A program made the translations under genes and the position numbers. Below, in pieces: positions 7,833 to 48,992 of a DNA stretch of 64,000 nt. The notes below the pieces were generated by a model. It did no database searches and was not told where the DNA came from. It saw only the letters and a list, made by a program, of their open reading frames with translations. This DNA comes from Arcobacter sp. FWKO B (GTDB lineage Bacteria > Campylobacterota > Campylobacteria > Campylobacterales > Arcobacteraceae), in contig NZ_CP041403.1 in assembly GCF_014844135.1 (NCBI RefSeq), positions 868,001 through 932,000 on the forward strand. Reading direction: 5' to 3'. Each line of letters begins with the position of its first letter. Within the stretch, counting starts at the first letter, position 1.

Positions 7833-7921
7833 TATCTAAAATCTAATATCTAAAAGCTAAAAGGTATGTATAATGTGTCGCAAAGCGACTCAATACTTTT
7901 TAGATTTTAGATTTTAGATAT
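7833..7921. repeat. Heptad inverted-repeat element, TAAAATC type with hairpin core
   Basis: The left arm (7833-7867) reads ATCTAAA, ATCTAAT, ATCTAAA, AGCTAAA. The right arm (7893-7921) is the inverse (TTTTAGA units). The core contains the perfect hairpin GTCGCAAAGCGAC (7877-7889). It fills most of the divergent gap between the PLP enzyme and exbB, so it must contain or border both promoters. Confidence 0.8.
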
Positions 7922-7940
7922 TACTTAAACAAGGTTTTTT

Positions 7941-11429: not shown

Positions 11430-11439
11430 TAAAACCTTT

Positions 11440-11555
11440 TAATAATTAATAGTTAATAACTAACAACTAATAATTATGGAATTGCTTCGCAATAAATTAT
11501 AATCGCTTTAGCGATACCACAATTATTAATTATTCATTATTAGTTATTAGTTAAT
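11440..11555. repeat. Heptad inverted-repeat element, family 1, copy C (inverted)
   Basis: The left arm (11440-11475) reads AATAATT, AATAGTT, AATAACT, AACAACT, AATAATT. The core hairpins are ATTGCTTCGCAAT (11481-11493) and ATCGCTTTAGCGAT (11502-11515). Reverse-complemented, the core aligns with copies A and B, with paired changes in both stems (A-T to G-C in one, G-C to A-T in the other). The right arm ends two bases before the fbpA stop codon. Confidence 0.85.
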
Positions 11556-34514: not shown

Positions 34515-34559
34515 TTTAATATATTAGTGTATTTAAGATTAAAGTCCAATAACCAATAA

Positions 34560-35312
34560 CTAATTACTAACTTCTACCAAATAACACTTTCGTTCAAATA
34601 TATCTTCTAAAGTTGTATTATTACATATTTTAAACCCATTGGTATTTATACTAGCTACATGGGTAATGCCAAGATTACTATACCATTTAGGGTAACTTCC
34701 AGCAGAAAAACCTGCTAAAATCACTATTCTAGCTTTTTGAGTAAATTTGAGTAAAGCATCTATTGTTGAGCCTATTAATGAAGCACCAGTAATAACAACA
34801 ATATCAGCTTGGCTAACCCCTTCATACTCAAAAATATCGTTATAAACCCCAAGATGTTTATCACTCTCTTGTCTACAAAAAACATTTACATCTTTGCCAT
34901 GTTGTTTTAATCTCAAAACTACTGGTGATAAGTTCCCTATAAAAACTATTTTATCTGTTTTAGAGCTTTTGTGATTAATAAAATCAGTTAATACTTCCCT
35001 TAAATTACCTTGCAAATCAATATTTTCATAGCTAGATAGAAATTGCCCTATTGCATTTATTGCAGATAGTGCTTGTGCTCTTTTTGCCACATCAAAATAT
35101 TTACCCTTATTTAAAATATCCTCTAAGTCCACATACTCACAATTAAAAAGGTCACCTTCTTTCTTTGGAGTAATAGTCAAACCTATAAACACTTTATCCA
35201 AAAAACCTATTTTGGTGTAGGTCAATGTATCACCCATACCAAAATCCAAAAGCACTAAATTGTGCTGTTTAGCACATATTTTTGCATATTCAATTAATTT
35301 ATTAAGTATCAT
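34560..35312 (-). CDS. DUF364 / DUF4213-type protein, Rossmann-like
   Basis: A 250-aa soluble protein. The N-terminal half (about 1-110) looks like the small domain of DUF4213 proteins, and the C-terminal half is Rossmann-like: IVFIGNLSPVVLRLKQHG, then DIVVITGASLIGSTIDALLKF and VILAGFSAGSYP. The DUF364 family has been called a putative heavy-metal-chelation domain, which is mostly inferred from context. Here it is coupled with hupE (TAATG overlap) and precedes hypB, so a role in nickel or another metal is likely, but no reaction is known. Confidence 0.7.
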   Translation of the reverse strand: MILNKLIEYAKICAKQHNLVLLDFGMGDTLTYTKIGFLDKVFIGLTITPKKEGDLFNCEYVDLEDILNKGKYFDVAKRAQALSAINAIGQFLSSYENIDLQGNLREVLTDFINHKSSKTDKIVFIGNLSPVVLRLKQHGKDVNVFCRQESDKHLGVYNDIFEYEGVSQADIVVITGASLIGSTIDALLKFTQKARIVILAGFSAGSYPKWYSNLGITHVASINTNGFKICNNTTLEDIFERKCYLVEVSN

Positions 35313-41796: not shown

Positions 41797-42573
41797 TTAC
41801 CTTATATCTTTTACAATAAAAAACGAGCTTCCACTACCGCTGAAAAAGGGTGAAGAGTGAAGAATGAAGGGTAAAGGGTGCAGATTTGGATATAGTGTGA
41901 TGGCTGGCAAGTACAAATCATTTGCTTGTTCCATAGTAAACTCTTTTAATATATCTATACTTTTCATACAAAATAATCTCTTCTTTTCACTCACCGATAA
42001 CTCTTTATAAAACTTTTCCCTAAATATCGTAAAAACTTTTGCTGTATTACACTCTACTTTTGGGGTAAATACCTCAATATCAAGAGCATTTTCATCAAAT
42101 CTTTCTACAACTTCACCAATACCACTTACATTTGCACTCTCATATCCATATACAAAAAATGGCACATCTGCCCCTATTTCAGAACCAATTTGTGCTAATT
42201 CATCTTTTGATAAACCAAGATTACAATAAATATTTGTCATATTTAAGAATGTTGCCACATCACTACTTCCACCACCAAGTCCTGCAAACTCTGGGATGTT
42301 TTTTGTTACTTTTACAGAATATTGTTTAAAAAAATCTTCTATTTGTGGTGCAATGTTCAGAAGCTTCAAATATCCCTTGTAGATGGTATTTTTTTCCAAA
42401 CTACATCCAAACTTACCTACTAGATTAAACTTATTTGGATAATCTTTAATAAACTTTATTTCATCATACAAGTTTTTTACTATCATAAATCTTGATGCTA
42501 TTTCATGATAATTACCACGCATACCAGTAATTTTAAGAAAGATATTTACTTTTGCATATGCTTTGTGCTTCAT
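41797..42573 (-). CDS. ispE: 4-diphosphocytidyl-2-C-methyl-D-erythritol kinase, with repeat-derived insert
   Basis: A 258-aa GHMP kinase that phosphorylates CDP-methylerythritol in the MEP pathway. The N-terminal KAYAKVNIFLKI substrate motif, PEFAGLGGGSSDVATFLN (ATP loop, around residue 90), and the C-terminal FFSGSGSSFF motif 3 are present. Just before motif 3, a stretch of about 12 residues (HPLPFILHSSPF) is encoded by a GGGTGAA-type heptad repeat, read on the strand without stops. Family members normally have only a few residues between the preceding helix and FFSGSG, so I infer an in-frame insertion. The start overlaps the truB stop by 4 nt. Confidence 0.88.
   Translation of the reverse strand: MKHKAYAKVNIFLKITGMRGNYHEIASRFMIVKNLYDEIKFIKDYPNKFNLVGKFGCSLEKNTIYKGYLKLLNIAPQIEDFFKQYSVKVTKNIPEFAGLGGGSSDVATFLNMTNIYCNLGLSKDELAQIGSEIGADVPFFVYGYESANVSGIGEVVERFDENALDIEVFTPKVECNTAKVFTIFREKFYKELSVSEKKRLFCMKSIDILKEFTMEQANDLYLPAITLYPNLHPLPFILHSSPFFSGSGSSFFIVKDIR
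41846..41882. repeat. Heptad arm inside ispE, RRRTRAA type
   Basis: On the plus strand reads GGGTGAA, GAGTGAA, GAATGAA, GGGTAAA, GGGTGCA. The coding strand of ispE reads the complement (TTCACCC), which has no stop triplets. The variation between units is mainly by transitions. Confidence 0.8.
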
Positions 42574-48961: not shown

Positions 48962-48992
48962 GTATCTAAAATCTAAAATCTAAAATCTAAAA
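48962..48992. repeat. Heptad arm, TAAAATC type, between flhA and argB
   Basis: Four units of (A)TCTAAA (48963-48992) with almost no variation. Only one arm is present. It lies between the flhA stop and the argB promoter. Confidence 0.7.

Follow-up and report, generated by a model that had tools for sequence, protein, structure and literature searches.

Rickettsia palindromic elements (RPE) insert in-frame into Rickettsia genes. Proteins that contain them have been listed (PMC2635572). Arrays of tandem heptads, with copies in open reading frames (ORFs), are likewise known from other bacteria. The TAACTGA heptamers of Beggiatoaceae, cyanobacteria and Bacteroidetes form arrays of 2–6 units that are mostly intergenic, with some in ORFs; stops occupy every frame of one strand, and the ORF copies lie in the stop-free orientation (PMC4679880). 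GGGAATC-type heptads of Xanthomonas and Nostoc are dispersed and mostly non-coding, prefer about four units and vary between related genomes (PMC4692102). In the P6b stem of the Nostoc trnL intron, Class I and Class II heptanucleotide repeats have motifs that differ between related strains, and these differences have been explained by repeated replacement of the whole region (PMC4476775). That bacterial genomes contain seven-base repeats in excess is a long-standing observation for which no mechanism has been given. Here we describe a heptad population in Arcobacter sp. FWKO B (G000) and follow its members within conserved genes, ispE above all, through related genomes.

An IspE loop encoded by one of many heptad arrays

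In the window, the whole 64-kb stretch of DNA that was analysed and to which coordinates refer unless another locus is named, ispE occupies 41797–42573 on the minus strand and encodes 258 residues. Its assignment as the GHMP kinase IspE follows from matches above the cut-offs of PRK04181 (E 3e-102, 341.6 bits against a cut-off of 191) and TIGR00154, and the best Foldseek matches of the AlphaFold model are solved IspE structures (2v2q, E 6e-19). Five degenerate heptads fill 41848–41882, reading GGGTGAA, GAGTGAA, GAATGAA, GGGTAAA and GGGTGCA on the plus strand and TGCACCC, TTTACCC, TTCATTC, TTCACTC and TTCACCC on the coding strand. They translate to (L)HPLPFILHSSP, residues 231–242, immediately ahead of FFSGSGSSFF (41823–41847, minus strand), a glycine-rich GHMP-kinase motif conserved in the alignment of relatives; this is where the first-pass annotation had placed the heptads. 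The best period-7 match of the gene covers 22 of 28 positions, a value equalled by none of 2,000 codon-shuffled versions.

As the annotation had also said, the coding-strand unit TTCACCC is free of stop triplets whichever frame is read; its complement GGGTGAA contains TGA. Being open in this orientation is what any array in an ORF needs in order to survive, and does not bear on mechanism. The annotation had further called the array an "arm", a label that fails: an inverted partner was sought within about 3 kb and none was found, the best inverted match (19/35) being equal to the mean of shuffled arrays, and in this respect the array is not RPE-like. GGG occurs in only three of the five units, on the plus strand, short of a quadruplex run of four consecutive G-tracts of at least three on one strand. 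The TTCACCC-type unit also falls outside the TAACTGA family; TTTTAGA is the unit most often met in the genome sample. Elsewhere in the genome, further GGGTGAA-type arrays (L002 and L003, about 1440–1620; L164, about 1440–1620) lie near rough pyrimidine-rich counter-arms.

In the alignment, the usual ispE loop (e.g. LKEYAKKDW) is absent and the array-encoded residues occupy its place. About 12 residues are indeed encoded, as had been claimed, but the net gain over relatives is only 3–5 because the array replaces the ordinary loop, so that the segment is a replaced loop rather than a clean insertion. AlphaFold models IspE with a mean pLDDT of 94.2 and gives residues 231–240 the lowest confidence of the protein (67), with the array-encoded segment as coil between helix 221–227 and strand 251–254. 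Structure prediction had been expected to place the segment in a surface loop; a loop is what the model gives, and its surface position is presumed. Beyond spanning the gap from the helix to the glycine-rich strand, the peptide is unlikely to serve a function of its own.

The ispE array is one of many. The window holds 11 period-7 arrays against 0 expected, with 0–1 for every other period, and 864 kb of the genome hold 51 against 0 in a Markov-3 shuffle, a density of about 59 per Mb that extrapolates to about 132 genome-wide. Other periods in the 864 kb mostly gave 0–7 arrays, with 10 at 12 bp. An excess at 24 bp proved to come mostly from one repetitive stretch; a long 24-bp repeat tract at L296 17588–18750 probably encodes a highly repetitive protein. 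Most arrays are 24–40 bp long and their units vary, the TTTTAGA class recurring 11 times and the AATTATT class 8 times. The population is dispersed and predominantly intergenic, with 40 of the 51 arrays outside ORFs of 100 aa or more; the remaining 11 are an upper figure, some of those ORFs being short and lacking an assignment. Stop triplets occur on at least one strand of the unit in 50/51 arrays; among random heptads the proportion is 72% (binomial P about 1e-6 on the premise of independent arrays, which does not hold where units recur). In ORFs, 2/11 arrays have units with stops on both strands, a smaller share than the 26/40 outside them (Fisher P 0.014), as survival requires. As such, the earlier view of the ispE array as a repeat that has become protein is borne out: it belongs to a dispersed repeat, lies in the only open orientation and encodes a predicted coil loop.

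Among the 11 window arrays, that of ispE is the only one within a conserved gene. Outside genes, the census finds (ATCTAAA)4 at 48964–48992, a single short array at 34546–34570, and spacers holding two inverted arrays each at 1070–1185, 1499–1610, 7834–7923 (ATCTAAA/TTTTAGA, between divergent genes) and 11439–11553. The arrays of the inverted pairs are about 35–51 bp apart and could form hairpins of about 90–115 bp.

Arrays, mostly of other units, at the same sites in sister species

Four genomes of the genus were compared. Two are incomplete MAGs, those of the sister species G001 and G002, and that of G001 has 6% contamination. In both sisters this ispE loop is occupied by (ACTCAGC)4, which translates to ITQHSALSTQHFY and has a period match of 0.89. 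A GTGCTGA array elsewhere in G000 has the unit found in the sisters' ispE. The loop is plain in the deeper congener G003 and in nearly all of the 131 ispE genes compared. In another genus, alternating ACCACTT/ACTACTC occupies this loop in G010, whose congener G027 has a plain one. The AATTCAA-type array of G015 is weaker (0.68) and does not exceed the best periodicity that chance produces elsewhere in the compared genes. The reading frame is open in the relatives that carry an array, and nowhere else in the 131 genes is there periodicity comparable to that of the loop arrays. The expectation that the insert would be absent elsewhere fails: G003 and nearly all other genera have an ordinary loop, but the sisters and G010 carry other heptad arrays, with G015 marginal. 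Orthologues of equal length and unrelated sequence had been named as the mark of an ordinary loop; G001 and G002 literally are such orthologues, but their sequence is itself a heptad array. Their two ispE arrays show no difference in 35 nt, against an agreement of only 0.74 at fourfold sites (26% differ), so that turnover is not steady. An exact three-unit search for TTCAYYC in 12 genomes returned the ispE copy itself as sole match, consistent with unit turnover.

Five arrays within conserved genes were followed: those of ispE, tsaD, dTDP-glucose dehydratase (rmlB), an IMPase-like protein and a protein that we take to be NnrS-like, for which an NCBIfam search gave no match. Each of the five loops holds an array in at least one sister species as well, with a different unit in four cases, and at all three sites readable in G003 the array is absent. 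In tsaD, (CAACCTT)n of G000 corresponds to arrays with 8-bp units, CTCAGCAC in G001 and CTCAGTCT in G002, with no array in G003 or the other genera read; the G000 and G001 proteins are equally long, with a period of 7 bp in the former and 8 bp in the latter. The NnrS-like gene has CTACCAT in G000, ATTCAAC-type units in both sisters and a plain loop in G003. Just before the VIDPLDG motif of the IMPase-like gene, G000 has AATTCAA and the sisters a decayed form of it (array identity 0.86), the unit not being replaced; this insert seems to have been retained, and a strand that it may form next to the active site could be the reason. For PseG, a further array-bearing gene, a match was sought in G001 and G002 and none was found.

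The rmlB comparison is made with paralogues of G001, as the search yielded no close orthologue in G002 and no more than a partial one in G003. The array of G000 is ATCAACC-type. Among the paralogues read, the same loop is filled by an array of AATTCAA type, by a GGATTTA element that has inverted arms or by a sequence without heptads, or else it is plain. The element, in L254, has both arms (GGATTTA ... ATCCCAAATCC), is in frame and lengthens the loop. G001 holds five copies of this gene (L254, L285–L288) with 83–88% identity to the G000 protein, which in a MAG with that contamination could be paralogues or mixed strains. An HSEQSEES-coding motif in one copy was considered as a dispersed element and dropped, having been found once in 15 genomes in that form.

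For ispE, tsaD and NnrS, the arrays of the three species match their own period at 0.79–0.96, and identity between G000 and sister arrays is 0.40–0.57, near the level against the array-free G003; third codon positions in these genes agree at 0.51–0.62. The arrays are far more alike internally than between G000 and its sisters, the signature expected of concerted evolution or replacement. The pattern of a shared site with another unit holds in spacers too, on few examples. The G001 spacer orthologous to that at 48964, TTTTAGA type in the window, has a different, TTAATAA-type heptad sequence, and one apparently orthologous spacer has (TTTTGCC)4 in G001 and (TTTTACC)4 in G002, one base change across four units.

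Proposed origin and turnover of the arrays

We propose, with a probability of about 0.68, that the ispE array came from the genome-wide heptad population and was gained in a tolerant loop in an ancestor shared with the two sisters, the site then passing down by descent while its unit was rewritten, either through local homogenisation or through replacement of the whole array. A short array of about 4–5 units would have landed in the IspE loop of this common ancestor, presumably after the split from the deeper congener, a placement drawn from few taxa. It may have survived by virtue of a stop-free coding strand, a kept frame and a permissive loop, and its unit may then have been rewritten, whether by homogenisation between units, with slippage or gene conversion as the means, or because a different array took its place. 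Counting against this history, the single gain is read from few species, and permissive loops do gain arrays independently, as in G010 of another genus; rewriting, in turn, has the unreplaced IMPase-like unit against it.

Any mechanism is tightly constrained by the arrays inside essential genes. For the heptad excess in general, slippage has been put forward, as cited in PMC4692102, but one unit more or less is 7 bp and shifts the frame, so that one-unit slippage alone cannot rewrite such arrays. The change in tsaD is hard to reach by slippage alone, and whole-array replacement, as inferred for the Nostoc trnL intron (PMC4476775), would be the better match; the TTTTGCC/TTTTACC spacer, with one base spread over four units, fits local homogenisation. 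More speculatively, an active process might swap short arrays wholesale at fixed chromosomal positions, heptad for heptad and even 7 for 8 bp, essential genes included. This is a tentative idea that we rather doubt; if it were true, frame and rough loop length would be kept and the protein loops of this lineage would be repeatedly re-encoded by simple repeats.

Alternatively, a permissive loop could have received its own array in each lineage, with no inherited site and no rewriting. The array of G010 beside its plain congener, the quite different sequences, one of them non-heptad, in one loop of the G001 rmlB paralogues, and the variable length of the ispE loop across the order are what such gains would produce. 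Only a few per cent of genes bear arrays, however, and five of five sites common to a sister are then an unlikely coincidence unless loops are targeted; the IMPase-like unit, moreover, is common to G000 and both sisters. We therefore regard independent gains as unlikely. Selection for IspE activity or regulation, for instance a contingency switch by 7-bp slippage, could also have kept the peptide, and both the identity of the sisters' ispE arrays and a step that would switch frame are in its favour. Yet the peptide is completely different between G000 and its sisters and absent from G003 and other genera, the loop has the lowest confidence of the model, the degenerate G000 units reduce slippage, and ispE is generally essential, so that its off-switch would be lethal; a functional role is very improbable. 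That this is an ordinary variable loop, whose length and sequence do vary in the whole order, with periodicity from chance or codon-usage bias, is hardly credible given the codon shuffles and the perfect heptads of the sisters, unmatched elsewhere in the 131 genes.

With inheritance of the site and rewriting of the unit as the preferred reading, sites shared by sisters but filled with different units show simple repeats turning into loops of core enzymes, and make the question of mechanism testable in strain collections.

Comparison with known repeat systems

Searches of the open-access literature turned up no case of one unit replacing another at the same site within an essential protein gene. 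Like RPE, the ispE array is a dispersed repeat that forms an in-frame part of a conserved protein; RPE, however, are longer palindromes in defined families, whereas these are simple tandem heptads and the ispE array has no palindrome. Like the GGGAATC-type heptads (PMC4692102), the arrays are dispersed, mostly non-coding, about four units long and variable between related genomes, but those heptads are G-rich and proposed to form quadruplexes, and most arrays here lack G-runs. With the TAACTGA repeats (PMC4679880) they share short, mostly intergenic arrays and ORF copies in the stop-free orientation. That system has one dominant unit, whereas here units vary widely within a genome and change between sisters at the same coding site. 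In this last respect the arrays resemble the Nostoc trnL P6b repeats (PMC4476775), where a fixed site holds different seven-nucleotide motifs in relatives. There, complementary repeats pair in an intron stem-loop; here, single arrays lie in the loops of essential proteins, under the constraints of frame and stop codons.
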